Shown: positions 13,105-51,849 of the stretch, piece by piece
How the letters are laid out: each line of letters starts with the position of its first letter
How positions within the stretch are numbered: the stretch's first letter is position 1
DNA from: Lachnospiraceae bacterium Zagget2
Lineage (GTDB): Bacteria; Bacillota; Clostridia; Lachnospirales; Lachnospiraceae
DNA length: 64,000 nucleotides
Direction of reading: 5' to 3'
NCBI GenBank assembly: GCA_001941045.1
Contig: MSHD01000039.1
Span: forward strand, 1-64,000
Position numbers and translations under genes: made by a program
The notes under the pieces: generated by a model
The model's input: only the letters and a program-made list of their open reading frames with translations
Database searches by the model: none
Told to the model about the DNA's origin: nothing

Positions 13105-13134
13105 ATATCCGTCAGTCTTTCAACCGACTAGGAT

Positions 13135-13163
13135 ATCATACCAAAAGCATAACCGCTTGTCAA
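13135..13163 (-). promoter_or_regulatory. Promoter of tRNA-Met
   Basis: Minus strand TTGACA (13158-13163), 17 bases, TATGAT (13135-13140), about 25 bases before the mature tRNA start. Confidence 0.85.
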
Positions 13164-13170
13164 CAATTTT

Positions 13171-16705: not shown

Positions 16706-16734
16706 AGTCTATACCAGTTCTGTCTAATTTTCAA
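16706..16734 (-). promoter_or_regulatory. Candidate promoter of SEC-C/thrS
   Basis: Minus strand TTGAAA (16729-16734), 17 bases, TAGACT (16706-16711). An alternative extended box TGGTATAGA overlaps it. It lies partly inside the end of the glycosyltransferase at 16724, marking the border between the polysaccharide locus and the housekeeping genes. Confidence 0.4.
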
Positions 16735-19830: not shown

Positions 19831-19846
19831 CAGAATTCCCTTTCTG

Positions 19847-21523: not shown

Positions 21524-21539
21524 CCCCCGAACCTTTTAC

Positions 21540-35958: not shown

Positions 35959-37049
35959 CGTGTCTTCTCCTTCAGTCGCTCCTGAATCTGCTCCGCCAGT
36001 CTGTGATTGTTCCGCCCCACGTCCGTACGGCTCACAAAACGCTCTACCGCAGCCGTCCAGCGGCCATAGTTTCCGGCGACCTCACGGATCGCGGCCTCAT
36101 AATCGTCAGAAGCGCGTCCCACCTTATATTTCTCGCAGAAATCCTTAAGCGGCGGGTTCGTGGAGGTCACGACCGGAATTCCTTCAAACAGGAACTCGTA
36201 AATCTTCCCGCTCGCACAGTATTTATTGTTCAGGTCACGCTGATGGTAAGTCACCATGCCCACCTGAGAGTGTCCGATAAAATATTTCAGATGATCCTGG
36301 TCCATGCGCGGGAAGATCTTCACATTGCTAAGCCCCAGCTCCTGAATCATGCCGCGGGCGATCTGCTCGTCCTCCTCCTCGCTCTCCCCGATGAGGAGCA
36401 GCTCATAGTCCTCCCCGAGGCTCTTCATCGCCTCGATCATCCTGCCGGTCGTGCGGCTCATATCACAGCCCGCCGTAGAGATAATGCGGAATTTTTCCTC
36501 TTTGAAAAAGTCCGCGCACTCGGCCTCCACCTGCTCGCGCCGCTTCTGCGAGGTATAGCGGAGACTGCGGATATTCTCGTAGTTCAACGGCTCCTCTTTC
36601 AGCCGGAATTTCTTCACCATGATCTTCACGCGATAGGCGTTCGCCGCGATGACCACATCTGAACGCCGTGTAAAGAGCTTTTCCACCATACAGCCGAGCC
36701 GCCCGGAAAGTCCGACCGCGCTTTTACGGTCATAGAGTTCCCGGCAGTCCTGCACCATATAGCGCGCGCCCGTCATCTTTCTGGCAATCACACCCGGGAT
36801 GATACCCTTGCGGTTGTCCACAAAGATCACATCCTGCGCGCCGACTCTCTGAACCTGCTGCATCACGAAGAGGATAAAATTGCTGTAGCCGTGATCCTGA
36901 TAGAGGATGTGCGTCGCCTCCTGCGGCTCCTCCCCCTCTGACGCGCGGGTGATATACCATACTTTTCCGAGTTCCTTCGCCGCCCGGACCAGCTCGCGCA
37001 GCCGCCCGTCATATGCATAATAATCGTAAGATATCAGCAGTATTTTCAT
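35955..37049 (-). CDS. GT4-like glycosyltransferase
   Basis: A 364-residue GT-B protein. ILLISYDYYAYDGRLRELVRA is the N-terminal loop; RIISTAGCDMSRTTGRMIEA starts the donor domain; GKIYEFLFEGIPVVTSTNPP near residue 295 is the donor-binding segment. It probably adds one sugar of the repeat unit. Four-base overlaps on both sides tie it to the epimerase and the aminotransferase. Donor unknown. Confidence 0.82.
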   Translation of the reverse strand: MKILLISYDYYAYDGRLRELVRAAKELGKVWYITRASEGEEPQEATHILYQDHGYSNFILFVMQQVQRVGAQDVIFVDNRKGIIPGVIARKMTGARYMVQDCRELYDRKSAVGLSGRLGCMVEKLFTRRSDVVIAANAYRVKIMVKKFRLKEEPLNYENIRSLRYTSQKRREQVEAECADFFKEEKFRIISTAGCDMSRTTGRMIEAMKSLGEDYELLLIGESEEEDEQIARGMIQELGLSNVKIFPRMDQDHLKYFIGHSQVGMVTYHQRDLNNKYCASGKIYEFLFEGIPVVTSTNPPLKDFCEKYKVGRASDDYEAAIREVAGNYGRWTAAVERFVSRTDVGRNNHRLAEQIQERLKEKTR

Positions 37050-38182
37050 GCGTCCGCCCCTGTCTTTTCCCGGATCAGGCGGATGATCCGCTCCTGATCC
37101 TCTGTTGATAGATACGGCGATACCGGTATCGCCAGCGTGCGTCTGCAGACATCGGTCGTCACCGCGAGGCTCTCGCCATACAGGCAGACGTCCTCAAAGA
37201 CCTTCTGCTGGTGCAGCCCCTTCGGGTAATAGATCATCGTCGGCACGCCATTCTCCTGCAGGTATGCGCGTACCTCATCGCGCTGCGCCTCATCCTTCAG
37301 AAGAATATTATAGGAAGCCCAGCTGGAATAATAGCCCTCCGGTACACGCGGAACCTTCACACAGTCCTGCAGCGCCTCCGTGTAGCGCGCCGCCACCTTA
37401 TTTACATCGGCCAGCTCATATTCCTGAAAGGCCTTCAGCTTCACCTGCAGCACCGCAGCCTGGATCGTGTCGAGACGGGAATTCATACCAATGCGGACAT
37501 TGTCATACTTGCTGCTGCCCTTGCCGTGCACCCGCATCGAACGGATCAGAGCCGCCCACTCGTCGTTGTCCGTAAACACCGCGCCGCCGTCGCCATAGCA
37601 GCCCAGCGGTTTCGCCGGGAAAAAGGAAGTCGTGGAAATATCACCGAAGCTTCCCGCCCGTTTTCCATGGTAGACGCCGCCGAAGCCCTGCGCACAGTCC
37701 TCCAGAATGTAGAGACCATAGCGATCTGCGATCGCGCGGAGCCGCTCGTAATCCGCCGGAAGGCCGAAGAGATCGACCACGACGATCGCCCGCGGCTTTA
37801 ATTTTCCCTCCAGGGCGACCGCCTCGATCACGCGGGTAAGGCTCTCCGGATCGATCGTGAAAGTATCCTCCGACACGTCCGCGAAGACCGGCGTCGCACC
37901 AACGAAGGCCGCGGACTCCGCAGAGGAGAAGAAGGTGTGGTCCGGCACAAAGACCGCGTCGCCGCTGCCAATGCCCCAGGCCTTCAGCGCCAGCACGAGC
38001 GCGTCCGTCCCGTTTCCGCAGCTGACACAGTTGCGCACTCCGATATAGTCTGCCAGTTCCCGCTCAAGCTCGTCGATCTGGTCTCCCGCGATATAATCTG
38101 AGGAGTCAAGGACGGCTTCAATCGCCGCGTCCATCTCCTTCTTTAATGCCCGATACTGACTCTTCAAATCCCGAAATTGCAT
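37046..38182 (-). CDS. DegT/DnrJ/EryC1 family sugar aminotransferase
   Basis: A 378-residue PLP aminotransferase. CVSCGNGTDALVLALKAWG binds the cofactor phosphate, EDCAQGFGGVYHGKRAGSFG carries the ring-stacking Asp, and the Schiff-base lysine is in TTSFFPAKPLGCYGDGGAVF. It is most like WbpE/WlbC-type enzymes, which aminate a 3-keto nucleotide sugar, the product of a WbpB-type dehydrogenase such as the protein at 43730. Four-base overlap with the next glycosyltransferase and three bases from the carrier protein gene. Confidence 0.9.
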   Translation of the reverse strand: MQFRDLKSQYRALKKEMDAAIEAVLDSSDYIAGDQIDELERELADYIGVRNCVSCGNGTDALVLALKAWGIGSGDAVFVPDHTFFSSAESAAFVGATPVFADVSEDTFTIDPESLTRVIEAVALEGKLKPRAIVVVDLFGLPADYERLRAIADRYGLYILEDCAQGFGGVYHGKRAGSFGDISTTSFFPAKPLGCYGDGGAVFTDNDEWAALIRSMRVHGKGSSKYDNVRIGMNSRLDTIQAAVLQVKLKAFQEYELADVNKVAARYTEALQDCVKVPRVPEGYYSSWASYNILLKDEAQRDEVRAYLQENGVPTMIYYPKGLHQQKVFEDVCLYGESLAVTTDVCRRTLAIPVSPYLSTEDQERIIRLIREKTGADA

Positions 38183-38185: not shown

Positions 38186-38416
38186 TTAAGCTTCCTCCTT
38201 TAACCGCCCGATAAGCTTTAAAATGCCCTCCGCCGAATTGAAATTCTCCGGCACGATCTCCTCCGCCGGAATCTCCAGGGCGTAGCGCTCCTCCAGTTCC
38301 GCAATCAGCGTGATCACGTCAAAGGATGTAAAGACGCCGCCGTCGATCAGCTCCTTCTCATTTTCAAAATCAATTTCCGGCTTCAGCTGCGCCAGAAGCT
38401 CCATTAATTCTTCCAT
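38186..38416 (-). CDS. Acyl carrier protein
   Basis: A 76-residue four-helix carrier protein. The phosphopantetheine serine is S31 in GGVFTSFDVITLIAELEE; the usual DSL is TSF here, but the serine and the following helix are kept. It is not in a fatty acid operon. Its neighbours are a GtrII-like protein, a PLP decarboxylase-like enzyme and an adenylating ligase, so it is probably the carrier for an activated amino or hydroxy acid destined for the glycan. Needs a phosphopantetheinyl transferase encoded elsewhere. Confidence 0.88.
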   Translation of the reverse strand: MEELMELLAQLKPEIDFENEKELIDGGVFTSFDVITLIAELEERYALEIPAEEIVPENFNSAEGILKLIGRLKEEA

Positions 38417-38435
38417 CTCATACTCCTTCTCTTAT

Positions 38436-39983
38436 CTAAAACTTGACCACGATGACACCGTCGAGCATCTGAATGGACCCCGAATCCGGGTAGGACGGCA
38501 TCTCCTGGACTTCCGGCAGATCCGCATAGGCCGATGCGTCGAGCGTCTCCGGATCAAAGTTACACCAGATCTTCATCGTGATGCGCCACGCGTAGTTATT
38601 CAGAATACTGCTGCTGTCGTAAGGGATCAGCTCAATCTCCTTAAACTCCGGCAGACCGATGCTGCCGGAAGTATAATCATACTTTGCAAATTCATTCACA
38701 TACACAACCGGCGTCTCGTCGGTGAAGCCCTCTACACTCTTGATCTGCGTGGCCAGCATGGTAAAGTAGCTGATCCCCTCAGACTGCATGACCTCCGCCT
38801 TGAGGTAGCAGATATTGTCAAAGCGCACGTACATTACATTCAGCAGCAGGAGCAGTCCGATACTGAGCACGGGCAGAGCGCGCCGCACCTTCCCGCCGAT
38901 TTTCCCCGCGGAAAATTCCGGCAGAAAGCCAGCCTCCAGAAGCCACGCAAAATAGACATAAAACATCGCCTGCCCATAGACCATGAGCGAATCCACCGTG
39001 TCCGCCTCGCACATCACATAGATAAAATTCACCGCCAGTGGAATGCAGAGCACAAACACCAGTGCCTGCAGGCAGAGCATCCGGTTCTTCCGGAAACAGC
39101 AATACAGCAGATTTGCGGTCCCAATCAGCGCCAGAATCAGAATCAGCCGGTATACGACGTCGCTGGAGAAGGGATACATATTCGCGCTCACCGCATCGGT
39201 GGGACAGAAAAACTCCCGGTAAGCGACGAGCACTCTCTTAATGTAACCTTTCAGGGAGGTCGATCCCAGCGTGCTGATTCCCTGATAATCGGAGAGCGTA
39301 TTGCCTGTGAGCTTCAGCGACAGCTTCATAATCACAAAGTAAATCGCCATAAAGCCCCCGCAGGAAAGCACGCTCCTGCAGGCGATATAAAAGAAATCCC
39401 TCCACTGCGCTGCTTCTTTTTTCACCGTCTGCATCAGCGCGTAGAACAGGATGATACTGACAAATACCGGTATCATGGCCTGATAGGTGCCGACGCCGCA
39501 GGCCATAAGAAGCAGTCCCGCAAGATAGAGGTACCATTTCCCTGTTCTGCAACTGAGGCAGGCGCCCAGCACACCCAGCAGAGTGCCGAAGAAATAATAG
39601 GGCATGGTAAACATATAGCCGAAACCGCTGGTGATCATGGGAAAGACGACCAGCACGCCGGTCAGCGCCGCCATCAGCCACCGGTTTCTGATTTCAAAGA
39701 GATCGGTCAGCACCATCGCGGACAGCGCGATAAACAGGATGGTCAGGATCCCGTTGAAGAGCGGCAGACTGTAGTAGGTGCTCCCGAAAAGCCAGGTGTT
39801 CAGATCACCGAGTATCCCCAGCATCCACCGGCCCAGGTAGTAGGTGCCGCCCAGGGTAAACAGCGACGCGTCGTCATGAAAGGAATACTTATTAAAAAAC
39901 GCCATTCCATGCGCGCAGAGCCCCCACATAAGGGCGCTCAGCAAAATGAATTGATATCTCTCCAGACGTTCTTTTTCCAACAT
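38436..39983 (-). CDS. GtrII-like membrane glucosyltransferase family protein
   Basis: A 515-residue protein with about 10-11 membrane helices. FNKYSFHDDASLFTLGGTYY and GRWMLGILGDLNTW in the N-terminal part are typical of the Glucos_trans_II (GtrII) family, which modifies O-antigen outside the membrane with a glucose from a polyprenyl donor. The acidic HDD pair is in the expected GT-C loop. It sits between the carrier protein and the decarboxylase-like gene, so its true donor could be something other than glucose. C-terminal 110 residues are soluble. Confidence 0.78.
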   Translation of the reverse strand: MLEKERLERYQFILLSALMWGLCAHGMAFFNKYSFHDDASLFTLGGTYYLGRWMLGILGDLNTWLFGSTYYSLPLFNGILTILFIALSAMVLTDLFEIRNRWLMAALTGVLVVFPMITSGFGYMFTMPYYFFGTLLGVLGACLSCRTGKWYLYLAGLLLMACGVGTYQAMIPVFVSIILFYALMQTVKKEAAQWRDFFYIACRSVLSCGGFMAIYFVIMKLSLKLTGNTLSDYQGISTLGSTSLKGYIKRVLVAYREFFCPTDAVSANMYPFSSDVVYRLILILALIGTANLLYCCFRKNRMLCLQALVFVLCIPLAVNFIYVMCEADTVDSLMVYGQAMFYVYFAWLLEAGFLPEFSAGKIGGKVRRALPVLSIGLLLLLNVMYVRFDNICYLKAEVMQSEGISYFTMLATQIKSVEGFTDETPVVYVNEFAKYDYTSGSIGLPEFKEIELIPYDSSSILNNYAWRITMKIWCNFDPETLDASAYADLPEVQEMPSYPDSGSIQMLDGVIVVKF

Positions 39984-40001
39984 CTCTTTTGTATCCTTTT
40001 C

Positions 40002-41168
40002 CTATGAATTGAGCTTCCAGGTCGCAAGCGCATCCCGGACCAGAACCGGACCGGCTGCCTCGCTGTACAGATATATCGCCGGCATATCGCGGCTCAGGAA
40101 GAGATACATCCCCTCCGTCACCGAGTAAGCGCCGATATTGTGGAAGACCAGGTAATCGCCGACCCTCGCATCCATGAGCGGCAGGCGCTTCAGCAGAATA
40201 TCCGCCGTCGTACAGAGGGAACCGTACACCGTCCACTCTTCCTCCCCGGCACATTCCAGCGGATGCTGCGGGAAATACGACAGAACCGGCGTCTTCATCG
40301 CCATATTCTGCCCATAATAATTGACATGATGGATACCGCCGTCCGCGATCAGGACGTTCACCGCCTCGTTCCGCTTCTGGTCGACAATCTGCGTCATATA
40401 GTAGCCGCAGGAAGCGACGAGATAACGCCCCATCTCGAAGACCAGCTCATAGGGCCGCTCTTCCGTAAGGAGCGCCGCGAACTCGTCCAGCAGCCGCGCG
40501 TCCTCCTCAAAATCATCCTTCGTAAAGTAGGGCACGCCGAGCCCCGGTCCATACTCCAGCGTCCGCGTGGCAAAGCCTTCCTCTGTCTCAAGCCGCCGGA
40601 TAAAATCCTCGATATACTGAAGCTCCGCCGCGATCTTTTTGATCTGCTTTTTCTGCGTGCCGGTGAAATACTGAAGTCCTGCAATCTCTATACAGGGATA
40701 CTGCTCCCGCTCCCGGAGCAGCGAGCGAACATCGTCCTCGCTCATGCCAAACTGGCTTCCGCTCGTCACGCGCAGCAGAATATCCACTTTTTTGCCAAGC
40801 TCGTCCGCGCAGCGCTGCACGAGCTGAAACTGGCGCACGGACTCCGCGGTATAATGCCGGACGCCCTGCTCCATCGCGTAGCGGACATCCTCCGCCGCCT
40901 TATAGACGCCGGACAGCACGATCTTCTCCATATTAAGAGCATTTTTCACACAGATATGGAACTCGCCCGGAGAACAGACCTCATAACGATCCACTGAGGC
41001 GTCCATCGCCTTTATAAGAAAGGGATTGGCCTTGATCGCGTAGCACAGCTTCGCCGGAGTGAGCTTCTGCGCAATGCGTTGTACGCGCTCCTGCAGCATG
41101 TCCGTGTTGAACACATAGGAGGGCGTTCCGAGCGTCTTTACCAGTTCCAAAAGCTTTTTCCCGTCCAT
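40002..41168 (-). CDS. PLP-dependent decarboxylase-like protein, fold type III (DAPDC/ODC family)
   Basis: A 388-residue alanine-racemase-fold enzyme. The PLP lysine is in LCYAIKANPFLIKAMD; GPGLGVPYF and YGSLCTTADILLKR (the C-x2-xD active-site segment of diaminopimelate decarboxylase) and FHNIGAYSVTEGMYLF are conserved. It stands eleven residues' worth of DNA (28 bases) from the adenylating ligase and near the carrier protein. The closest known logic is the exosortase-A-associated decarboxylase, ligase and carrier set, or BtrK, which decarboxylates a carrier-bound glutamate. I chose the ATG at 41168 after AAGGAG. Substrate unknown. Confidence 0.85.
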   Translation of the reverse strand: MDGKKLLELVKTLGTPSYVFNTDMLQERVQRIAQKLTPAKLCYAIKANPFLIKAMDASVDRYEVCSPGEFHICVKNALNMEKIVLSGVYKAAEDVRYAMEQGVRHYTAESVRQFQLVQRCADELGKKVDILLRVTSGSQFGMSEDDVRSLLREREQYPCIEIAGLQYFTGTQKKQIKKIAAELQYIEDFIRRLETEEGFATRTLEYGPGLGVPYFTKDDFEEDARLLDEFAALLTEERPYELVFEMGRYLVASCGYYMTQIVDQKRNEAVNVLIADGGIHHVNYYGQNMAMKTPVLSYFPQHPLECAGEEEWTVYGSLCTTADILLKRLPLMDARVGDYLVFHNIGAYSVTEGMYLFLSRDMPAIYLYSEAAGPVLVRDALATWKLNS

Positions 41169-41196
41169 CGTAAGCTCCTTTTTCATCCGAGTTGTA

Positions 41197-42702
41197 TCAT
41201 AATTCCGCCATCAGCGCTTTCCGGTCAATCTTGCCGTTCTTCGTGAGCGGCATCTCCTCCACGCGGCGAAATACACTGGGAATCATAAACCGAGGGAGCC
41301 GTTCTGTCAACTGCGTGATAATCTCCTTTGCGTCCGGTTCTCCGACGTAAAAGGCAATAATCCGCGTATTCGGCTCATCGTAAACGCAGCAGGCCCGCGC
41401 GATCCCGGGGAGCGCCTGCAGAGCCGTCTCGATCTCCCCGAGCTCGATCCGGTGCCCCATATGCTTGATCTGGAAATCCTTGCGCGTCACATAGTAGAGC
41501 TCCCCGTCCCCGCCGTAGCGTCCGAGGTCGCCGGTGCGGTAGATCAGCTCCCGGTAGCGCGTATGCAGCGGATTCTGCACGAAGGCCGCGGCCGTCTTCT
41601 CCTGCTCCCGATAGTAGCCGAGTGCCAGCGCCGTGCCGGACACGCAGATCTCCCCGAGCTGCCCGGCTTCTGTCACGAGAGTATCCTCCCCGTCCAGCAG
41701 AAAGACCCGCTCGTTCGGGAAAGCCCGCCCGATCGGGATACTTTCCTCCTCCGAAAACTCCCGGTTTATCACGTAATACGTACAGTTGCAGGTGATCTCC
41801 GTCGGCCCGTAGAGATTCACATAGAGCGCGTCCGGCAGATAAGTCCGCCAGTAATTCAGCTGCTTCACCGGCATGACCTCGCCGCTGAACAGCACGCGCC
41901 GGATACTCCCCGGCACCTTATAGCGAAAACCCTTCAGCATTGAGATGACACACAGCGCGGACACCGCCCAGGTGAGGCTCGTCACCTGCCGCTCATCGAG
42001 GAAATCGATCAGTTTTTTGGGGATCGAGAAATATTTTTTCGGAATCACCTCGAGCGTCGCCCCGGTCTTCAGCGCGCTGTAGATATCCTTGACCGACACA
42101 TCGAAGTCAAAGGGCGCCTGGTTTCCGATCACATCTTCACGGTCAAAACCAAACATGCGGGTAAAATGCTCCGTAAAATCAATCACGGAGCGGTGCGAGA
42201 CCACGACGCCTTTTGGCACGCCGGTCGAGCCGGAGGTGAAGTTGGTATACAGTGGATCGACGTCGCAGAAATTCTGTCTGCGCTCCGCGAGCAGCGCCTC
42301 ATCCGGCTCAGCTGCCAGGAGCTCCTCCGCGAGCAGAATCTTTCCCTCAAATCCGGTTTTTTCAATCTTCGCAAGAAGTTTCCGGTCGGTGACGAGCAGT
42401 CCCGCCTCCAGCGTCCGCAGGATCGACAGAATCCGTTCTGCCGGCTGCTCCGGTTCCACTAAAGTATAAAAGCAGCCCGCACAGACTGCCCCCAGAAATA
42501 CGTTCAACGTAAAGGCTTCCTTCTCCATCAGCACCGGCACCGGCGCGTTCTGCGGCAGCTCGCGCGCAAGCGCGCTGCCGATTCTGCGTGCGTTTCCCAG
42601 TACCTGCGCGTAGGTGAAACTCCGCTCCGCATCCTCAAACGCGATTTTCTCCGGGCAACTTTCAGCACTTTCTTCCAAATATTCCAACACATTTTGAATC
42701 AT
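41197..42702 (-). CDS. Adenylate-forming ligase (amino acid/acyl activating, DltA-like)
   Basis: A 501-residue member of the AMP-binding superfamily. Core motifs in order: YTNFTSGSTGVPKGV (A3), NLYGPTEITCNCTYYV (A5), YRTGDLGRYGGDGELYY (A7), IKHMGHRIELGEIE (A8) and the catalytic lysine in LTKNGKIDRKALM (A10). It activates a carboxylate with ATP and loads it on a carrier, here presumably the protein at 38186. Similar in style to DltA, which loads D-alanine. The ATG at 42702 follows GGGAG; the frame upstream (to 42816) has no ribosome binding site. A 126-base gap to the previous gene shows no clear promoter. Confidence 0.88.
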   Translation of the reverse strand: MIQNVLEYLEESAESCPEKIAFEDAERSFTYAQVLGNARRIGSALARELPQNAPVPVLMEKEAFTLNVFLGAVCAGCFYTLVEPEQPAERILSILRTLEAGLLVTDRKLLAKIEKTGFEGKILLAEELLAAEPDEALLAERRQNFCDVDPLYTNFTSGSTGVPKGVVVSHRSVIDFTEHFTRMFGFDREDVIGNQAPFDFDVSVKDIYSALKTGATLEVIPKKYFSIPKKLIDFLDERQVTSLTWAVSALCVISMLKGFRYKVPGSIRRVLFSGEVMPVKQLNYWRTYLPDALYVNLYGPTEITCNCTYYVINREFSEEESIPIGRAFPNERVFLLDGEDTLVTEAGQLGEICVSGTALALGYYREQEKTAAAFVQNPLHTRYRELIYRTGDLGRYGGDGELYYVTRKDFQIKHMGHRIELGEIETALQALPGIARACCVYDEPNTRIIAFYVGEPDAKEIITQLTERLPRFMIPSVFRRVEEMPLTKNGKIDRKALMAEL

Positions 42703-42828
42703 GAATCTGTCTCCCGCTCTGCTGGCACAAACTTTCATAAATGACAGGACTTCTACACTTATCTCTCTTCTTTGCGTTTTCAGACAGAATATCTCATATT
42801 TTCCCGTCTTCCACATCGAGTCCCCAGC

Positions 42829-43737
42829 TCACTGCTTCTTCTCCAGCACCTTCCGCGCAGGATTTCCGAACTGTTTCTCATCAGCCGGAATATCGCGGAT
42901 CGCGGTCGCGCCGATCCCGAGGTAGGCGCGATCTCCCACCCGCATCCGGTTCGTCGTCACCGCCATCGGCGCGACGTAGACATGCTCTCCGAGGTCGCAG
43001 TGCCCGGAGATGCTCGACTTTCCGCCGATCGAGCTGTGTTCTCCGATCACACAGTTGTGCCCGACATCACCGAGCAGTCCGATCACCGAGCTCCTGCCCA
43101 GAACAGTCGTCCGTGAATCGCCCGCAGCCAGCACCGCCCCTGCCAGCAGGAGGCAGCCGTCCTCAATGATGGTTCCCGCCAGATGCGGCAGGTCGCGGCA
43201 CACATCGTCGTCCAGACGGTAAGTATCGAGATCGTCCACGCCGATCAGACAGTGCTCCTGAATCTCCACATGATTCCCGATGCGCACATGGTCCTTGATC
43301 ACCGTGCCCGCACCGATCCGGCAGTTGTCGCCGATCACGACATCCGCGCCGATCACACAGAAGGGCGCGATCGTCACGTTCACGCCGAGCTTCAGATCCT
43401 CGCTTAAAAAACTGCCATTTTGCTGCAAAAGCGCAGGCTTCGGCAGCAGCGCGCGGAAACGCGTGAGGAGCACGCCGTACATGCTCTTCTGCATCTGCGC
43501 GCGAATCTGCACACAGGACGCATGCAGCCCCGGCAGCTCCACATCCGTCTTCGTCACGAAGATGCTCTCCCGCACGCACGCGTAGTCTCCACTCACATCG
43601 GTCCGCGCATAGATGATACTGTTACTCTCCGGCGCTTCCGGGTCGGAGACGCCGAATATTTTAAATTCCCGACCGACGAGTTCGGGGAACTCCTCACCCG
43701 CCAGCTCGCAGGCTCTTACTTCTCCAACTTTAAACAT
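42829..43737 (-). CDS. LpxD-like hexapeptide acyltransferase
   Basis: A 302-residue protein: an N-terminal 100-residue cap and then a left-handed beta-helix of hexapeptide repeats (APFCVIGADVVIGDNCRIG, then VIGEHSSIGGKSSISGHCDL). It is longer than WbpD/PglD-type acetyltransferases (about 190-215) and closer to LpxD, which takes the acyl group from an acyl carrier protein. With the ligase and carrier next door, it is a good candidate for the transfer step onto an amino sugar. It could also acetylate the 3-amino sugar made by 43730 and 37046. It overlaps the oxidoreductase by 8 bases. Confidence 0.8.
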   Translation of the reverse strand: MFKVGEVRACELAGEEFPELVGREFKIFGVSDPEAPESNSIIYARTDVSGDYACVRESIFVTKTDVELPGLHASCVQIRAQMQKSMYGVLLTRFRALLPKPALLQQNGSFLSEDLKLGVNVTIAPFCVIGADVVIGDNCRIGAGTVIKDHVRIGNHVEIQEHCLIGVDDLDTYRLDDDVCRDLPHLAGTIIEDGCLLLAGAVLAAGDSRTTVLGRSSVIGLLGDVGHNCVIGEHSSIGGKSSISGHCDLGEHVYVAPMAVTTNRMRVGDRAYLGIGATAIRDIPADEKQFGNPARKVLEKKQ

Positions 43738-44809
43738 CGAATTCCCCCGCCATATCCGTGCTCCGGAAGTCCGTAAGCGGCAGCTTCACCGGCACGCCCT
43801 CTTTCTGACTCTTGTAGATCGCAAGCACCATCTCGAGCGCGTTCCGCCCCGCCACGGCGTCCACATAGGGCTTCCGGTCATTTCGGATCGCGTCGATCAC
43901 GTCCGCGTAGAGGCTCGTGTGACCATTTCCATAGACATTGCTCGTCTCTTCCTGCAAATGCTTATTTTCCGCGTCCCCGGCCTCCTCGTCCGCGAAGTCC
44001 CAGACGTCGATATTGTTCGTGGACTTCCCGCCGAGCTTCACCGTGCCGTTTTCCCCGAAGAGATAGAGCGTCTCCTCCAGGTTCTGCGGGTAGACGTTCG
44101 TCGTCCCCTCGATCGTCGCGACCGCGCCGTTCTTGAACTTTACGACCGCCAGGCCTACATCCTCCGCCTCGAGGTAGTGGTGGAACTGCTGACGCGTCAC
44201 GCCGTAGACCTCCTCCACCTCGTCACCGAGCATCCAGCGCAGCAGGTCAATGCCGTGGATACACTGGTTCATGAGCGCGCCGCCGTCCGAAGCCCATTTC
44301 CCGCGCCACGGCGCCTGATCGTAGTAGGACTGGTTCCGGTTCCAACGCACATGAACCGAACCGTGGGACAGCTTCCCGAAGCGTCCGGCTTCGAGCGCCC
44401 GGCGTGTCTGCTGCACCGCCAGATTGAAGCGGTTCTGATGGCAGGCGGAGACCTTCACGCCCTTTCCCGCCGCACGGCGGACGATCTCGTCCGCGTCCTC
44501 CATGTTCATCGCGATCGGCTTCTCGACGATGCAGTTCACACCATGATCGATGCAGAACAGCGCGATCTCGGCGTGAACACCGCTCTCCGTCGCGATGCCG
44601 ACGAGCTCCGGCTTCACTTCCTCCACCATTTTCCGGTAATCCGTGTAACGTGCGATGCTCTCATCCTTTTCGAGTCCGTGCTTCGCGAGCAGCGCCTCCA
44701 TCTGTGCGGGCTCCACATCGCAGACCGCCGCAAACGTGAGACCGTTGTTCCGTACCGCTTTGATATGGTTTGTTGCGATTCGGCCGCAGCCGATCAGTGC
44801 GTATCTCAT
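43730..44809 (-). CDS. Gfo/Idh/MocA nucleotide-sugar oxidoreductase, WlbA/WbpB-like
   Basis: A 359-residue NAD-dependent enzyme. YALIGCGRIATNHIKAV is the dinucleotide loop; VEKPIAMNMEDADEIV carries the EKP lysine; RWNRNQSYYDQAPWRG and GGALMNQCIHGIDLLRWMLG with the conserved histidine follow. WlbA/WbpB oxidise C3 of UDP-GlcNAcA before transamination. Together with the dehydrogenase (21540), aminotransferase (37046), acyltransferase (42829) and epimerase (34861), all five steps toward a UDP-diacetamido-mannuronic acid have a candidate. Four-base overlap with the next gene. Confidence 0.88.
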   Translation of the reverse strand: MRYALIGCGRIATNHIKAVRNNGLTFAAVCDVEPAQMEALLAKHGLEKDESIARYTDYRKMVEEVKPELVGIATESGVHAEIALFCIDHGVNCIVEKPIAMNMEDADEIVRRAAGKGVKVSACHQNRFNLAVQQTRRALEAGRFGKLSHGSVHVRWNRNQSYYDQAPWRGKWASDGGALMNQCIHGIDLLRWMLGDEVEEVYGVTRQQFHHYLEAEDVGLAVVKFKNGAVATIEGTTNVYPQNLEETLYLFGENGTVKLGGKSTNNIDVWDFADEEAGDAENKHLQEETSNVYGNGHTSLYADVIDAIRNDRKPYVDAVAGRNALEMVLAIYKSQKEGVPVKLPLTDFRSTDMAGEFDV

Positions 44810-46050
44810 CCCTCTACCCCTTTAAAAATATCCATGTATTGTCTCGCGAGCAGCGAATAGCTGTACTTCTCCCTGATCTCGCGTCTGCCTCTCTCTCCCA
44901 TCGCCTGGCGCTCCTCGTCCGTCATCCGGTAGACCCGCTGCAGCGCCTCCGCGTAGGCCTTCACATCCCCCGGCGGGATGACAATTCCGCCGCCCGACTG
45001 ACCGACCACATTGACCGAGCCGCAGGCGAACACCGTCGGATTTCCAGAGTACAGATAATCGTTCAGCTTATTGAGGCTCAGACCCAGGTCGTTCAGCACC
45101 CGGTCGTCCCGCAGCGCCGCGATACAGACCTTTGCCTTCGAGAGCGCGACCGCGACCTGGCTTTTCTGGATGCGCGGGAAAATCCGTACATTTTTCAGTC
45201 CATCCTCCTGCACGCGGCGCTTCACGTCCTCCTCCAGGTAGCCGTTGCCGATGAAAGCAAACTTGATCCTGTCATCTCCCTGCTCCTGCAGCCATTTTGC
45301 CGCGTCCAGCATATCAAAAAGCCGCTCTGAATCGACAAAGCTGCCGGTGTAGACCGCGCACCAGTTTTCACTGAGATAGCGATCCAGCTCCTCGGGCAGT
45401 TCCACCTCGCCCTTCGCCAGCACCTCGTCGATCTCCTCCGTGTGGTAGCCGTTCGGAATCCAGTAAATCCGATCGCGTCTCACATAGGGAAACTGTCCCA
45501 GATAGCGATAACCGAACTCCATCGTCGAGACGATCGCGTCCGCGTGACGATACGCGCGGCGCTCGAGCAGGGAAAACATCAGACAGGCCGGGTGATATTT
45601 GGATGTCCCGAATATCTCCGTCAGGGACAGCGGCCAGTAGTCGCGAATCTCACAGATAAACGGAATCCGTTTTTTCTTTGCAATCGCCCAGGCGCTCTCC
45701 CAGGCGAAGGGATGCACCGACGAGCCGATCACCAGCTCCGGAACGCCGAATTTTTTATAAAATGCCTTCTCATATTTTTTCATGAGGCGGCAGTAGTCCA
45801 TCATATTCAGGATGCGGTTCAGGGAAATCCCGTGGTAGGCCGGCGCCGTGTGCAGGAAAACGTAGGTAATACCCGGCTTCACCTTCCGGATCTTTACTTC
45901 CTCATCGTAAGCGTAGGTCTCCCTCCCGTGCGTAAAGGAAGACATAAACACGACGACCTCCATACCGAGGGGCACCAGCTCCTTTGCCAGCTCATAGTGG
46001 CGGTCTCCCTCCAGCCCCGAGTGATGGTTCAGTATCCACAGCTTTTTCAT
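44806..46050 (-). CDS. GT4 glycosyltransferase, WbuB-like (second copy)
   Basis: A 414-residue GT-B enzyme starting KKLWILNHHSGLEGDRHYEL, related in style to the protein at 24423. FICEIRDYWPLSLTEIFG, CAVYTGSFVDSERLFDMLDA and LNKLNDYLYSGNPTVFACG are in order. Such enzymes usually add N-acetylated deoxy-amino or uronic sugars. Four-base overlaps tie it to the oxidoreductase downstream and the ATP-grasp gene upstream. Confidence 0.86.
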   Translation of the reverse strand: MKKLWILNHHSGLEGDRHYELAKELVPLGMEVVVFMSSFTHGRETYAYDEEVKIRKVKPGITYVFLHTAPAYHGISLNRILNMMDYCRLMKKYEKAFYKKFGVPELVIGSSVHPFAWESAWAIAKKKRIPFICEIRDYWPLSLTEIFGTSKYHPACLMFSLLERRAYRHADAIVSTMEFGYRYLGQFPYVRRDRIYWIPNGYHTEEIDEVLAKGEVELPEELDRYLSENWCAVYTGSFVDSERLFDMLDAAKWLQEQGDDRIKFAFIGNGYLEEDVKRRVQEDGLKNVRIFPRIQKSQVAVALSKAKVCIAALRDDRVLNDLGLSLNKLNDYLYSGNPTVFACGSVNVVGQSGGGIVIPPGDVKAYAEALQRVYRMTDEERQAMGERGRREIREKYSYSLLARQYMDIFKGVEG

Positions 46051-47021
46051 CCGTTCTGTTCCTCTCTTCGCAGCATGATCTCGCAGTATTTCATCATCAC
46101 GAGGCCGTCCTCATAGTCCCCGATCTGCGGCTCGTTCGCCTGCCCCGCAAGATTCTGCACGATGTATTTCATATGGTTGACGCCCGCTTCGTACGCGTGC
46201 GGATAACCGCCACCAAATCTCGGATTGACCTCCGAGATATAGTAGACGCCGTCACAGTCAAAGAGGTCGATATCGATCTGTCCAGTAAATCCACTCTCCC
46301 TCACAAAGCGCTCCACGAGCGCGAAGAGCGCCGGATCCCTGAAGGAGACGCCCTTGTCCGTCTCTCCCGCCCGCATGACGAGCTTCTTCTTCGAGAAGAC
46401 CGAGAGCAGCTCGCGGCTCTGCATATCGATATAGCAGTCTACGCCAATCTCCTGCCCGTGCAGGTATTCCTGGATCATCAGTCCCTCCGCGTGGTCAAAC
46501 AGAAGGTCGACCGTCTCCCGGTCCTGCGCCACCGAGATCGCGATGCTCGCGCTCCCCCGCACCGGCTTGACAAAGACCGGATAAGAAATAAGCCCCTGCT
46601 CCACATCGCGGTAGAATTCCTCCCGCCCGATATAGCTCTTCGCACAGGGATAGCCATGCTCCTCAAGCCAGCGGTACATCAGCCACTTATCGAGCGTGCG
46701 CTCGCACAGCTCATAGGAGGAGCCGATGACCGTGACGCCGAGCGCACGGAACTCCGCCTCGTGCTGCGCCAGCAGCGAGAGCTCCGGGTCGATCAGGGAA
46801 AAGACGCCCGTGATCTGCTCTTTTCGGCAGATATCATAGATAACGTCAAGATATCCGGGCGCGGTCATGCGCGGCACAATATAGTGCCGGTCAGCCTCAT
46901 AGAGCGCCGGAGCGTTCGGACTCATGTCCGTCGCGACGACAAGCCCTCTCCCCTTCAGCTCTTTTTTCATATACTGTATGATTTTATTGCGCGTACCACA
47001 GCTCAGTATCAGAACGTTCAT
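46047..47021 (-). CDS. ATP-grasp domain protein (carbamoyl-phosphate-synthase-like ligase)
   Basis: A 324-residue ATP-grasp ligase. Residues 1-105 are the N-terminal Rossmann-like domain (MNVLILSCGTRNKIIQYMKK); FVKPVRGSASIAISVAQDR is the ATP-binding lysine segment; EVNPRFGGGYPHAYEAG is the metal-binding C-terminal signature. Such ligases join a carboxylate to an amine or thiol. The ATG at 47021 overlaps the stop of the decarboxylase-like gene. The pair resembles the BtrJ/BtrK pair of butirosin synthesis, where an ATP-grasp enzyme loads glutamate on a carrier protein and a PLP enzyme decarboxylates it. Substrate not known. Confidence 0.85.
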   Translation of the reverse strand: MNVLILSCGTRNKIIQYMKKELKGRGLVVATDMSPNAPALYEADRHYIVPRMTAPGYLDVIYDICRKEQITGVFSLIDPELSLLAQHEAEFRALGVTVIGSSYELCERTLDKWLMYRWLEEHGYPCAKSYIGREEFYRDVEQGLISYPVFVKPVRGSASIAISVAQDRETVDLLFDHAEGLMIQEYLHGQEIGVDCYIDMQSRELLSVFSKKKLVMRAGETDKGVSFRDPALFALVERFVRESGFTGQIDIDLFDCDGVYYISEVNPRFGGGYPHAYEAGVNHMKYIVQNLAGQANEPQIGDYEDGLVMMKYCEIMLRREEQNG

Positions 47022-48208
47022 ACTTCCTTTTCCTTCCAGAGAGAGCCCTGCGCATACTCGCGCGCGCTCCACTTTTCACGCACGAGGCGAAGTGCTCCGT
47101 TTTCCTCAAGCCAGACCGCCGGGAACCAGCTGATGAACAGCGGCGACAGACACATCGTATAGGCGCCGACCTTCTCGTAGACAATGCGGTCCCCCTCGCA
47201 CAGCGCCGATCCGTCCGCGATCTCGAAGAGGCGGTCATTTTCCATACAGGTGAAGCCGGAGACCACCTGCTTTTTCAGGCGTTCTCTCCCTTCTTCCCCG
47301 TCCGTATACTCTATATGATGGAAATAACTCTTTTTCGTCATCAGCGGATCGACATGGATCCGGCTCCCGTCCGTCACCACGAAATGGTTGCGGTTCGTCT
47401 CCTTCGCGTCGGTCACGGTGGTGACATATTCGACCGGCGGACAGATGAGGGAGGTCCCCGGCTCGACGATCAGCATCGTCTCCGCGGGATCATATTCCTC
47501 ACGAAGAATCTCCGACATCTCGCGCAGATAATCGGCATACTGCGGCTTGTTCGCAAGGCCGCCGAAATAGCCGCCGCCCACGTCGATGTAGGACAGCTTC
47601 AGATCATACTCTCTGCGGAGCCTGCAGGCCGTCTGCGCGATCGCGCGGTAAATGGCAAGGCTGCGCGTTCTGGAGCTGCAGTGCAGATGAATTCCCGCGA
47701 CCGTCGCGCCCGGTATCCCGCTCAGCGCCTCGAGCGCGCGGGCAAAATCCCCGTTCTCATAGCTGAAGCCAAAGCGGCCGCCCTCCTCGCCGCCGGACGC
47801 CTCGCCGGGGCACAGCGCCTCCAGGTCAAAATTCACACGGGTGCCGACCTGCACAGTCTGCCCGGACGCACAGGCCTCACGGAGCCAGCCGAGCTCCCGC
47901 TTCGCGTCCAGATTGACGATCTGTCCCGTCGCGCAGGCGCGCAGGAAGCTCTCCTTCCCCTTGACCGGCCCGTTATAGATAATCCGCTCATATCCCATAT
48001 ATTCCGCAAGTTCGTACTCGTCCTGCGACACGACCTCCGCGCGGCAGCCCTGCTCCTCCATATACTGCAGCACCCAGGGTAGCGCGTTTGTCTTGAACGA
48101 ATATCCGATCGCCGCATTCGGCCAGTAATCTGCCAGCGCTTTTTTCAGTTTTTCCATTCCCTCATCCAGCATGTCCTTGTGGATCAGGTAATACGGAGTC
48201 TCCATCAT
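47018..48208 (-). CDS. PLP-dependent decarboxylase-like protein, fold type III (second)
   Basis: A 396-residue alanine-racemase-fold enzyme different from the one at 40002. IGYSFKTNALPWVLQYM holds the PLP lysine, SYIDVGGGYFGGLANKPQY the glycine loop, GFTCMENDRLFE the CxxxD active-site motif and YEKVGAYTMCLSPLF the C-terminal tyrosine. It could decarboxylate an amino acid, free or carrier-bound, or epimerise one. It is coupled to the ATP-grasp gene by a 4-base overlap and directly follows the PglC-like gene. Confidence 0.85.
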   Translation of the reverse strand: MMETPYYLIHKDMLDEGMEKLKKALADYWPNAAIGYSFKTNALPWVLQYMEEQGCRAEVVSQDEYELAEYMGYERIIYNGPVKGKESFLRACATGQIVNLDAKRELGWLREACASGQTVQVGTRVNFDLEALCPGEASGGEEGGRFGFSYENGDFARALEALSGIPGATVAGIHLHCSSRTRSLAIYRAIAQTACRLRREYDLKLSYIDVGGGYFGGLANKPQYADYLREMSEILREEYDPAETMLIVEPGTSLICPPVEYVTTVTDAKETNRNHFVVTDGSRIHVDPLMTKKSYFHHIEYTDGEEGRERLKKQVVSGFTCMENDRLFEIADGSALCEGDRIVYEKVGAYTMCLSPLFISWFPAVWLEENGALRLVREKWSAREYAQGSLWKEKEV

Positions 48209-48832: not shown

Positions 48833-49966
48833 CTACTTCCACAGTCCTCTGATAATCTCACAGATTCGCGCAAGATCCGCGTCGCTCATCTTCGTATCAC
48901 TCGGCAGGCAGACGCCGTGCGTGAAGAGCGTCTCCGCCACGCCGCCGTTGTCGATATAATCACAGCCTGCGAATACCGGCTGCAGGTGCAGCGGCTTCCA
49001 GACCGGACGGCTCTCAATGTCGCCGCGCTCGAGCGCGAGAATCACGTCGAGCGGCTTCACCGGGCAGTCGTCGGAGAACTGCATGACGCTGAGCCAGCAG
49101 ATCGCGCGCTCCCCCTCATGCTGCGGCATGAAAGACACACCCGCAAGATCGCCCAGATGCTCCTGATAATAGGCGAAAATATGGCGCTTCTGCTCAATTC
49201 TCTGCTCGATCACCTGAAGCTGTCCGCGGCCGATGCCGGCACAGATATTGCTCATACGATAATTATACCCGATTTCCTTATGCTCATAATGACGGGCCGG
49301 CTCCCGCGACTGCGTCGCCCAGAAGCGCACCTTCGCCATGCGCTCTTTTGCCTGCTCTTCCGGCAGACTGCACACGAGCATGCCGCCGCCGGAGGTCGTG
49401 ACGATCTTATTGCCGTTGAAGGAAAAGACGCCGTAATCGCCGAAGGTGCCGGTATACTGCCCGTGATAGAGGGTTCCCAGGCTCTCCGCCGCATCCTCGA
49501 TGATCGGCACGCCATGTCTCCTGCAGATCTCCGTGATCGCGTCCATATTGGCCGGGAGGCCGTAGAGATGCACCGGAATCACAGCCTTTACATTCGGATA
49601 CTTCTCGAATGCCCGCTCAAGCGCCTCCGGGGACATGTTCCAGGTCTCCCGGTCGCTGTCGATGAAAACCGGCACGGCCTTCTCATAGGCGATCGGGTTC
49701 GCCGTCGCGGAAAAAGTCAGCGACTGACAAAATACGATGTCGCCCTCTCCCACGCCCACAGCCTTCAGCGCGAGATGCATCGCCGCAGTACCCGCCGAGA
49801 GCGCCGCCGCGTCCTGCGCGTGTATATAGGCGCTCAGCTCCTTCTCGAACTCGTTGACATTTTTGCCGAGCGGCGCAATCCAGTTCGTGTCGAACGCCTC
49901 TTTCACGTATTCCTGCTCGTAGCCCTCCTCGCTCATGTGCGGGGAAGCCAGGTAAATATGTGCCAT
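48833..49966 (-). CDS. DegT family aminotransferase, PglE/EpsN-like
   Basis: A 377-residue PLP enzyme. IYLASPHMSEEGYEQEYVKE and AFDTNWIAPLGKNVNEFE are typical of the PglE/EpsN branch. SAGTAAMHLALKAVGVGEGD and EDAAESLGTLYHGQYTGTFG follow, and the Schiff-base lysine is in SFNGNKIVTTSGGGML. It aminates the 4-keto sugar made by the dehydratase next to it (49987), giving UDP-4-amino-4,6-dideoxy-GlcNAc. The acetyltransferase that usually sits in this set (PglD) is not adjacent. Confidence 0.92.
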   Translation of the reverse strand: MAHIYLASPHMSEEGYEQEYVKEAFDTNWIAPLGKNVNEFEKELSAYIHAQDAAALSAGTAAMHLALKAVGVGEGDIVFCQSLTFSATANPIAYEKAVPVFIDSDRETWNMSPEALERAFEKYPNVKAVIPVHLYGLPANMDAITEICRRHGVPIIEDAAESLGTLYHGQYTGTFGDYGVFSFNGNKIVTTSGGGMLVCSLPEEQAKERMAKVRFWATQSREPARHYEHKEIGYNYRMSNICAGIGRGQLQVIEQRIEQKRHIFAYYQEHLGDLAGVSFMPQHEGERAICWLSVMQFSDDCPVKPLDVILALERGDIESRPVWKPLHLQPVFAGCDYIDNGGVAETLFTHGVCLPSDTKMSDADLARICEIIRGLWK

Positions 49967-49986
49967 TTTGCAACGCCTCTTTTCTT

Positions 49987-51849
49987 TTATTGTTGTGTCG
50001 TCATATGATAGGTTGGGACAATCTCCATCACTTTTTCCTTGATCCGCGGGCTGTCCTGCTTCGAGAGCTCATCCAGCTCGGTGAGCTCTCGCATAAACTC
50101 TTCTTCGTCGAACTCGATCGGCTTTCCGATATGGATCAGCGCATTCTCCGTGCCCTTCAGCCCCTCCTCACTCATCAGCAGCTCCTCATAGAGCTTCTCA
50201 CCGGGGCGAAGGCCGGTAAACTTGATATCAATATCCTCGTAGGGCTTCAGACCCGACAGACGGATCAGATTCAGCGCGAGATCGAGGATCTTCACCGGCT
50301 TGCCCATGTCGAGCACAAAGATCTCGCCGCCCTTCGCCTGCGCACCGGCCTGCAGCACGAGCGAGACCGCCTCGGGAATGGTCATAAAATAGCGGATAAT
50401 ATCGGGATGCGTCACCGTCACCGGTCCGCCCTCCTCGATCTGCTTCTTGAAGAGCGGGATCACGCTGCCGTTGCTGCCGAGCACATTTCCAAAACGCACC
50501 GCGACAAATTCTGTCCGGGACTGATCATTCATCATCTGGATCACCATCTCACAGAGCCGCTTCGACGCACCCATGATGTTCGTCGGGTTCACTGCCTTGT
50601 CCGTCGAGATCAGCACAAAGCGCCGTGTACCGTAGCGATCCGCCGCCTGCGCGGTCTTCCAGGTACCCATCACATTATTCTTGATCGCCTCGTTCGGACT
50701 GTCCTCCATCAGCGGCACGTGCTTGTGCGCCGCCGCGTGGTAGACAATCTCCGGATGGTACTGCTCAAACACACTGTTAATCCGATGCGTATTGCGCACC
50801 GAGCCTATCAGCACGACAAGATCCAGTTCCGGATAATCATGTTTCAGCTCCTGCTGAATATCATACGCGTTATTCTCATAAATATCAAAGATAATGAGCC
50901 GCTTTGGCTCATGCCGCGCGATCTGGCGGCAGAGCTCGCTGCCGATCGAGCCGCCCCCGCCGGTCACAAGCACCGTCTTGCCCGACACATAGCCCATGAT
51001 GCTGTCCACCTGCGTGTCCACCGGCTCGCGCCCGAGCAGATCCTCAATCTCCACATTGCGCAGCTTGGAGACGCTGACCTCCTCATTCACGAGCTGATAG
51101 AGCCCTGGCAATACCTTCAGCTTGCAGCTTGTCTGGCTGCAGATATCCAGGATCTCCTGCACCGCGGCGTGGGACGCGCTCGGAAGCGCGATCATAATCT
51201 CGTCAATGTCATATTCCTCCGCCAGACGGCAGATATCCTGACGAGTGCCCGCCACCTGTACACCGCGCAGATACTTACCCTGCTTGCCCGGATCATCGTC
51301 CACCAGGCAGCAGACGTTCTGCTCGATATAACGGCTGCTCTGCAGTTCCTTCAGCAGCGTGTAGCCCGCCTCGCCGGCGCCCACGATCATCGTATTTTTC
51401 TTGCCCGCGTGCACCGTGATGCGCTGCCGCTGCTGCAGATAGCCCAGGATCCGGTACATAAAACGGAACACGGAAATCCCCATAACCAGAACCGCAAAAT
51501 ACATAAAGGGATAGCTGCGCGGAACATGCAGCCCCATGAGCGCCATCCCGATGGCCTGCGTGATGGTCGAGATCAGACAGGCTACGATAATATTGGCCAG
51601 ATCGGACGCGCTGGCATACTTCCAGATGCCCTGATAAAGCCGACACGCATAAAAAGCCGCCAGTGTAATCACCAGATTCACCGGCAGATAATGGAAAATA
51701 TTTTCGATAAACTCAATGGCCTGCGGCTCGAAGAAGAGATTGTAACGGATGTAGATTGCCAGCGGTCCCGCGGCCGTGATAATCAGCGCATCCGCGAGAA
51801 CCTGCAGAAAAATCCGGTACGCCATCTTTTTGTTTCGTATTTTCAACAT
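49987..51849 (-). CDS. UDP-GlcNAc 4,6-dehydratase, PglF/CapD-like membrane protein
   Basis: A 620-residue protein: four N-terminal membrane helices (to about residue 120), a first Rossmann domain (MIVGAGEAGYTLLKELQSS) and a second SDR domain (TVLVTGGGGSIGSELCRQIA near residue 290). The active site has STDKAVNPTNIMGASKR, with Met in place of the usual Tyr, as in all PglF/CapD enzymes. It removes water from UDP-GlcNAc to give the 4-keto-6-deoxy sugar. First gene of a sub-operon behind the promoter at 51886-51914. Confidence 0.93.
   Translation of the reverse strand: MLKIRNKKMAYRIFLQVLADALIITAAGPLAIYIRYNLFFEPQAIEFIENIFHYLPVNLVITLAAFYACRLYQGIWKYASASDLANIIVACLISTITQAIGMALMGLHVPRSYPFMYFAVLVMGISVFRFMYRILGYLQQRQRITVHAGKKNTMIVGAGEAGYTLLKELQSSRYIEQNVCCLVDDDPGKQGKYLRGVQVAGTRQDICRLAEEYDIDEIMIALPSASHAAVQEILDICSQTSCKLKVLPGLYQLVNEEVSVSKLRNVEIEDLLGREPVDTQVDSIMGYVSGKTVLVTGGGGSIGSELCRQIARHEPKRLIIFDIYENNAYDIQQELKHDYPELDLVVLIGSVRNTHRINSVFEQYHPEIVYHAAAHKHVPLMEDSPNEAIKNNVMGTWKTAQAADRYGTRRFVLISTDKAVNPTNIMGASKRLCEMVIQMMNDQSRTEFVAVRFGNVLGSNGSVIPLFKKQIEEGGPVTVTHPDIIRYFMTIPEAVSLVLQAGAQAKGGEIFVLDMGKPVKILDLALNLIRLSGLKPYEDIDIKFTGLRPGEKLYEELLMSEEGLKGTENALIHIGKPIEFDEEEFMRELTELDELSKQDSPRIKEKVMEIVPTYHMTTQQ

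Follow-up and report, generated by a model that had tools for sequence, protein, structure and literature searches.

In butirosin biosynthesis, the carrier is loaded by the ATP-grasp enzyme BtrJ. Excerpts of PMC7857480 describe its partner BtrK as a decarboxylase acting on the glutamyl carrier. A comparable route is reported in part of the text of PMC12186527, in which AfcQ loads L-aspartate by its side chain onto the carrier AfcK and AfcP decarboxylates it there to beta-alanine, and in sections of PMC11284099, which assign the same chemistry to VinN/VinL/VinO with 3-methylaspartate, loading taking place before decarboxylation. As far as these excerpts go, such donor chemistry is already described (PMC12186527, PMC11284099). 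Here, we analyzed positions 1 to 64,000 of contig MSHD01000039.1 of Lachnospiraceae bacterium Zagget2 (assembly GCA_001941045.1; genome size 3.34 Mb; 66 contigs); this whole 64,000-nucleotide stretch is referred to as the window. Within a polysaccharide locus of the window lie genes for a stand-alone amino-acid adenylating ligase (LIG), a fold-III pyridoxal 5'-phosphate (PLP) decarboxylase (DC1), and a stand-alone carrier (together, the trio), accompanied by an LpxD/LpxA-like acyltransferase (the transferase), a Gfo/Idh/MocA oxidoreductase (Gfo), and a sugar aminotransferase (DegT1).

We propose that the substrate of LIG is a dicarboxylic amino acid, L-aspartate being the likeliest, which the enzyme would adenylate and attach through the side-chain carboxylate to the carrier's phosphopantetheine arm. 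DC1 would then strip the free alpha-carboxylate on the carrier to give an omega-aminoacyl thioester, most likely beta-alanyl-S-acyl carrier protein (ACP); because a fold-III enzyme needs a free alpha-carboxylate, LIG would have to use the side-chain carboxylate if DC1 acts after loading. In the genus of the window, the transferase would move the aminoacyl group to the amine of a uridine diphosphate (UDP)-3-amino sugar made by Gfo (3-oxidation) and DegT1 (3-amination), and the surface polysaccharide would thus bear an amide-linked free amine, with a zwitterionic polymer as a possible product. Most of the relatives examined have this donor module next to an MBOAT gene instead, in a dlt-like operon. 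The gene families, the conserved residues, the recurrence of the trio, and the genus order Gfo, LpxD-like enzyme, LIG, DC1, (GtrII), carrier, DegT1 are observed, whereas the order of loading and decarboxylation, aspartate over glutamate, the acceptor amine, and every activity are inferred. Decarboxylation on the carrier is likely, and the proposal as a whole (i.e., aspartate loading, on-carrier decarboxylation, and transfer to a 3-amino sugar) has, in our view, an even chance of being correct.

The trio is widespread. Relatives of DC1 at an E value of 1e-30 were present in 42 of 200 family genomes and in 17 of 17 genus genomes, the window genome being counted in both. For the family survey, 40 loci were taken from 39 DC1-matching genomes, leaving out G112 (a split match); the weak match G108 was fetched later as L228. 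Profile searches of these loci, which had been selected by DC1, yielded DC1 in 40, LIG in 38, the carrier in 37, and the whole trio in 35. Of the 40 loci, 30 have an MBOAT gene no more than 6 kb away (Pfam-confirmed in one representative) and 29 have an SGNH-like gene (our own reading of the sequence; two representatives had no Pfam match), suggesting that the trio elsewhere mostly forms a dlt-like operon with an added decarboxylase. Among the 10 loci without MBOAT, 4 have the trio at most 3 kb from the end of the stretch. A class-wide survey at 1e-40 matched 45 of 391 genomes, with scores dropping from 462 to 238 bits below a true group of 14 genomes (that of the window included). The other 13 class loci with full DC1 scores contain LIG (13/13), the carrier (12/13), and MBOAT (11/13), and 9 of them fall outside the family, spread over five other families. 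Since LIG, DC1, and the carrier are found next to one another again and again, both in the family and in these 13 class loci, their clustering is not due to chance. In four loci (L043, L052, L062, and L214), the trio stands alone by a purA-like gene with no MBOAT near, and three of these also have a small SEC-C-type gene beside the trio (both genes named by eye).

Named relatives of the locus are mostly from Lachnospiraceae; Lachnoclostridium sp. An196, a cultured member of the genus, has it as well (L126). The order Gfo, LpxD-like enzyme, LIG, DC1, carrier, DegT1 is complete in 15 of the 16 loci fetched from the genus; the 16th begins inside DC1 at a contig end, and Gfo is split over two frames in L103. 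DegT1 follows the carrier in all 16. A scan of named genomes with an alignment of the LpxD-like enzyme returned 16 loci, largely from the same assemblies, in each of which LIG and DC1 follow; its patterns were drawn from the genus, and more distant relatives could be missed. The genus LIGs group together as a single clade in the ligase tree (100/100), with MBOAT-type and stand-alone ligases around them. An earlier sequence-only reading of the window had described the locus as a single set including a GtrII-type transferase, an ATP-grasp ligase, and a second PLP enzyme (DC2). The open reading frames it named were all recovered where it had placed them, on the minus strand and with their families confirmed, and the refuting condition it set, that these genes rarely occur together, does not hold for the trio, which is co-located in 35 of 40 loci. 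The set as drawn did not hold: of the 16 genus loci, 5 have GtrII between DC1 and the carrier, 8 contain the ATP-grasp gene, and 6 contain DC2, although some contigs end before reaching either of the latter two. On this distribution, GtrII and the ATP-grasp/DC2 pair were excluded from the module. Gfo, the LpxD-like enzyme, and DegT1 are what stays constant around the trio, and the earlier reading had named only the second of them.

In the window, every gene from PglF through DUF6077 belongs to a minus-strand run, transcribed in the order PglF, DegT2, PGT, DC2, ATP-grasp, GT4, Gfo, LpxD-like, LIG, DC1, GtrII, carrier, DegT1, GT4, WecB, EpsG, DUF6077 (Table 1). A promoter and terminator scan gave signals no higher than those of shuffled sequences.

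Table 1. Features of the locus, in window positions, with family assignments from Pfam and NCBIfam models
Feature	Position	Strand	Supporting match or remark
UDP-GlcNAc 2-epimerase, WecB type	34861..35958	-	TIGR00236 519 bits, over cut-off
DegT1 sugar aminotransferase, proposed 3-aminotransferase	37046..38182	-	Best specifically named PDB match WbpE
Carrier, stand-alone (ACP/DltC-like)	38186..38416	-	PP-binding 20.6 bits, cut-off 20.8; DltC model 29.9 bits
GtrII-type membrane glycosyltransferase	38436..39983	-	Glucos_trans_II 2e-59
DC1, fold-III PLP decarboxylase, BtrK branch	40002..41186	-	Orn_Arg_deC_N 3e-25
LIG, stand-alone amino-acid adenylating enzyme	41197..42816	-	TIGR01733 324 bits, over cut-off
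LpxD/LpxA-like hexapeptide (left-handed beta-helix) acyltransferase	42829..43737	-	Best NCBIfam model LpxD 1e-30, below cut-off
Gfo/Idh/MocA oxidoreductase, proposed UDP-HexNAc(A) 3-dehydrogenase	43730..44809	-	Pfam
ATP-grasp ligase	46047..47072	-	PRK12767.1-5 488 bits, cut-off 271; 2pn1 1.5e-86
DC2, second fold-III PLP decarboxylase	47018..48208	-	lysA 140 bits, FslC 118 bits
DegT2 + PglF-type dehydratase, 4-amino-sugar pair	48833..51849	-	Rival source of acceptor amine

LIG scores 302 and 304 bits against the DltA models, which is 172 to 258 bits short of their cut-offs (560 and 476). Its annotated start appears too long, and the true start is likely at about 42702, because the family alignment begins near residues 39 to 42. 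The substrate pocket of the window LIG reads D V K T L S L C N K, and the pattern D[VI]K..S.CNK is shared by 64 of 68 LIG sequences (D235, 66/68; V/I236, 64/68; S301, 66/68). Lys239 is near-invariant (66/68, with Arg in 2) and could bind the spare carboxylate of the substrate. According to excerpts of PMC11253843, adenylation (A) domains that bind their substrate as a beta-amino acid hold the amine with Asp235 and have a bulkier residue at position 236 and Ser301. All three features are found in LIG, whose V236 and S301 agree with those of A domains taking beta-amino acids. C330 and N331 are present in 64 of 68 sequences, with no gap there relative to LgrA. The carrier has a phosphopantetheine site (Ser in FTSFDV), and this Ser is kept in 28 of 28 aligned carriers, including that of the window; its scores against the DltC models (18 and 30 bits) lie below the cut-offs of 52 and 68. 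In a separate locus (L035 6716-10057; G065), DC1 lies within a 1,114-aa open frame whose C-terminal part looks by eye like a membrane segment together with Ig-like repeats and a domain of transglutaminase type, and the ligase pocket there is off-pattern.

The nearest solved relative of DC1 is BtrK (7ru7/2j66), narrowly in a single-sequence comparison (112.6 versus 108.2 bits for a DapDC) and clearly in a profile comparison (218 bits; next, 184 bits). The PLP-binding Lys52 and residues Cys325, Asp329, Tyr354, Glu251, and Arg254 are conserved in 31 of 31 sequences. In a second tier of DC1-like enzymes (L222 to L228; 200 to 240 bits), several have, by eye, a small carrier of their own, a protein of approximately 450 aa with a CNIGAEKYW-like motif, and, in some loci, a thioesterase-like gene; this probably represents another carrier-dependent decarboxylase system.

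The transferase, whose gene overlaps Gfo, has LpxA and LpxD entries as its first 14 PDB matches (1.5e-17 to 1e-9), followed by lower-ranked matches to VioB (2e-9), QdtC (3e-8), and 3mqg (3e-4), the last of which we take to be WlbB. LpxA and LpxD use acyl-ACP, and VioB and QdtC are coenzyme A (CoA)-dependent sugar acyltransferases. The LpxD model scores 107 bits on the transferase, against a cut-off of 242.5. His227, which presumably aligns with the catalytic His of LpxA, and His246 are kept in 17 of 17 sequences. The best PDB matches of Gfo are 3q2k and 3q2i (E values of 5e-75 and 2e-70), both presumably WlbA, and the best specifically named match of DegT1, after the unnamed 4qgr, is WbpE (7e-85). 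By these matches, Gfo and DegT1 are similar to the 3-dehydrogenase and the 3-aminotransferase that work as a pair in the Wbp/Wlb pathway. A WbpI-type epimerase was ruled out, as the epimerase at 34861..35958 is of the WecB type (4e-157 versus 3e-43 for a diacetamido-glucuronate epimerase). A UDP-GlcNAc 6-dehydrogenase was not found: four PF03721 matches were detected in the genome, and the two over the cut-off are WecC-like (window 21540-22763) and UDP-glucose-dehydrogenase-like (L116). Weaker relatives of the transferase (27 to 34%) occur in 5 other genomes of 299, with no module gene within 1.5 kb. One of these genomes, G188, has a contiguous set of Gfo (76%), a hexapeptide transferase (26% identical to that of the window), and DegT1 (53%), with no trio within 1.5 kb, and is not among the family-level DC1 matches; without the trio, the sugar genes are thus kept and the transferase differs. 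On balance, the odds are slightly in favor of the LpxD-like enzyme being the transferase to a 3-amino sugar.

A link to pantothenate was met by chance in locus L069 of genome G101, in which panB-panC-coaBC is followed by LIG and DC1, and this layout led us to test for PanC and PanD over 200 family genomes. PanC was found in 52 and PanD in 49, all of the latter with PanC. Of the three genomes with PanC and no PanD, G098 was not used in the argument (PanC partial [167 of 268], a 4.2-kb contig, and no pan operon seen). G101 carries a Rossmann-type gene, panB, panC, and coaBC, then LIG and DC1 (L169, contig C12, 10240-17278), with no PanD in the genome; its module carrier is elsewhere, on contig C6, and its LIG is nested among MBOAT-type LIGs (100/100). 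In G002, a module-type carrier directly precedes DUF2520-panB-panC-coaBC, again with no PanD (L167 7361-11800), and a second operon on another contig comprises LIG, a carrier, an SGNH-like gene, and MBOAT (L254 8655-12880). G101 was the source of the pantothenate idea, and G002 is an independent case found by looking for the pattern afterwards; the evidence thus consists of two genomes, one complete (G101) and one partial (G002). Beta-alanine is suggested as the product because the PanC-positive, PanD-less G101 has LIG and DC1 in its pantothenate operon, and we favor it over gamma-aminobutyrate (GABA) with about even confidence. A general role in pantothenate synthesis was ruled out, as PanC is not in excess among DC1 genomes (12/42 versus 52/200, taking the three 200-genome samples as the same set). 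In an enlarged sample, PanC matched in 98 of 397 genomes; 45 panC loci were fetched from the 46 new PanC genomes (G750, a 20-bit match, was left out). The stretch fetched includes PanD at 38 of these loci and lacks it at the other 7, of which 2 are truncated by contig ends. A ligase near panBCD in L258 was not counted (off-pattern pocket, PanD present, and no DC1).

Several observations weigh against the proposed pathway. For the donor, LIG lacks the shortened beta13-beta14 loop and Lys330/Arg331 of VinN; holding the carboxylate would then fall to Lys239, or the substrate may be bound in another way, conceivably as an alpha-amino acid. The LIG pocket is off-pattern in three DC1-bearing loci (L035, L055, and L059), and the DC1 of G101 slightly favors lysA (142 bits) over the exosortase-type model (135 bits). 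No DC1 was found in G002 by profile search at 94% completeness, despite the presence of LIG and the carrier, and thus DC1 may be dispensable to the module, or else the assembly lacks its gene. The beta-alanine of G101 and G002 may also come from a PanP-type (PF00282) aspartate decarboxylase, which was not searched for there. Of the 12 PanC genomes among those with DC1, 11 have PanD, and no module gene was found in any of the seven PanD-less panC stretches, PanD elsewhere in those genomes not having been tested. On the acceptor side, the NeuD/PglD model, whose known members use acetyl-CoA, hits the transferase as well (2e-28), and the AlphaFold model of the transferase is weak (predicted local distance difference test score of 66), with LpxD heading a Foldseek list that contains no significant match.

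For the amino acid, LIG may load the gamma-carboxylate of L-glutamate, with DC1 yielding gamma-aminobutyryl-S-ACP as in the BtrI/BtrJ/BtrK system. BtrK, which decarboxylates a glutamyl carrier, is the best solved relative of DC1, and a Lys at position 239, also found in the Glu codes of A domains, fits this substrate as well. However, LIG is an adenylating enzyme rather than an ATP-grasp ligase, and the placement of LIG and DC1 (G101) or the carrier (G002) in pantothenate operons points to beta-alanine, not GABA, making glutamate unlikely. The steps might also be reversed, DC1 acting on the free amino acid and LIG then loading the resulting amine-bearing acid (e.g., beta-alanine). This order would explain how G002 manages with LIG and a carrier and no detected DC1, as LIG may not need DC1, and in the pan operon of G101, DC1 could give PanC free beta-alanine directly. 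Yet the carrier-bound form is the substrate of BtrK, VinO, and AfcP, beta-alanine would need no conserved pocket Lys, and AfcQ does not activate beta-Ala in the assays covered by excerpts of PMC12186527; we consider this order quite improbable. Least probable, and very unlikely in our view, is that LIG and the carrier perform ordinary D-alanine or neutral amino acid chemistry, DC1 being an unrelated lysine/diaminopimelate-type enzyme caught in the operon. The DltA/DltC-like ligase and carrier and the MBOAT and SGNH-like genes alongside them elsewhere suit such a role, but DC1 stays beside the ligase in the family and in five further families of the class, and neither the near-invariant Lys239 nor the wide shortfall from the DltA cut-offs is expected from it.

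For the acceptor, PglF and DegT2 may instead supply the amine as a 4-amino group (bacillosamine type), with Gfo and DegT1 making another sugar. PglF and DegT2 belong to this locus, 13 of 16 genus loci contain DegT2 (the remaining three are cut short on that side), the NeuD/PglD match of the transferase would fit, and excerpts of PMC6519341 propose for Flavobacterium psychrophilum wfpD/wfpG a like reaction, in which an amino sugar is N-acylated from an ACP. Against this stand the overlap of the transferase gene with Gfo and the Gfo-transferase-DegT1 triplet kept in G188, and we regard a 4-amino acceptor as rather unlikely.

Apart from the module, the closer relatives of DC2 are DapDC and N-citrylornithine decarboxylase, with BtrK more distant, and the ATP-grasp gene occurs without DC2 in two genus members; the ATP-grasp ligase and LysA/FslC-like decarboxylase pair (46047-48208) perhaps provides a separate amide-then-decarboxylate decoration. 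A second polysaccharide-type cluster (window 16724-27024) encodes a heparinase II/III-like protein, an ADH-Gfo fusion, a WecC-like dehydrogenase, two GT4 enzymes, and a sugar-phosphate transferase. In window 1-14000, the guanine-plus-cytosine content rises from 0.40-0.46 to >0.5 near 10 to 12 kb, by tRNA-Met (13030-13104) and thrS, which is a possible island edge.

Taken more broadly, the trio may be a portable module by which anaerobic Clostridia make a beta-alanyl carrier, a single donor with three outlets: (i) MBOAT-linked beta-alanylation of wall polymers; (ii) cytosolic N-beta-alanylation of a nucleotide amino sugar, in the genus of the window; and (iii) PanD replacement in at least one genome. 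We offer this view tentatively and consider it doubtful as a whole. If it is true, the MBOAT outlet would be a dlt-like system that uses an amino acid of its own, and carrier-borne PanD replacement would be one answer to the beta-alanine source of gut bacteria with the rest of the vitamin B5 pathway, of which excerpts of PMC6593275 count 95 strains with all other B5 genes and no PanD/PanP. The pantothenate link makes this source a testable question. Amine decoration of surface polymers governs charge, peptide resistance, and immune recognition, and a beta-alanine (or GABA) tag would differ chemically from D-alanine and escape D-Ala assays.

Searches limited to open-licence PMC papers listed none on the exact gene set, in agreement with the sequence-only reading, and use of the donor chemistry on surface polymers or as a PanD stand-in did not appear among the papers listed. 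The view that a carrier-bound amine is added to a glycan stays the best reading, and the parallels drawn earlier with DltA/DltC, BtrIJK, and the exosortase-A set are sound, the ligase being DltA-like and the DC1 profile matching BtrK best. In relation to the Wbp/Wlb pathway to UDP-ManNAc3NAcA, as outlined in excerpts of PMC10622841, the locus shares a 3-dehydrogenase, a 3-aminotransferase (both by homology only), a hexapeptide N-acyltransferase, and a 2-epimerase; it differs in that the transferase is LpxA/LpxD-like rather than WbpD/WlbB-like, the epimerase is of the WecB type, and no WbpA-like dehydrogenase was found in the genome. With the dlt operon (DltA/DltB/DltC/DltD), it shares the DltA-like ligase and DltC-like carrier and, at the family level, the MBOAT and SGNH-like neighbors; it differs in the added decarboxylase, in scores below the NCBIfam DltA/DltC cut-offs, and in having no MBOAT in the window locus, the two MBOAT matches of the genome being on contigs C35 and C13 rather than on that of the window (C39). 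Butirosin BtrI/BtrJ/BtrK resembles the proposed module in decarboxylation on the carrier but uses glutamate, and the constant ligase of the window is an A enzyme, whereas its ATP-grasp ligase is a variable passenger. As in the Vin and Afc systems, a stand-alone A enzyme, a stand-alone carrier, and a PLP decarboxylase are found in one operon. Likened without sequence comparison and as far as the excerpts describe it, the vicenistatin system (VinN/VinL/VinO) decarboxylates after loading, as proposed here, and differs in its substrate, its role in providing a polyketide starter, and its K330/R331 and shorter loop. Similarly likened without sequence comparison, AfcQ/AfcK/AfcP (AFC-BC11, Burkholderia) matches the proposed module in its adenylating enzyme, carrier, and PLP decarboxylase and, in the excerpted account, serves lipopeptide assembly rather than a surface glycan. 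The exosortase-A-associated ligase (TIGR03098) and decarboxylase (TIGR03099) models both match, at 205 and 190 bits, far below their cut-offs (592 and 478); these NCBIfam models are typed as hypothetical equivalogs, and the module described here gives a hypothesis for the function of that pair.

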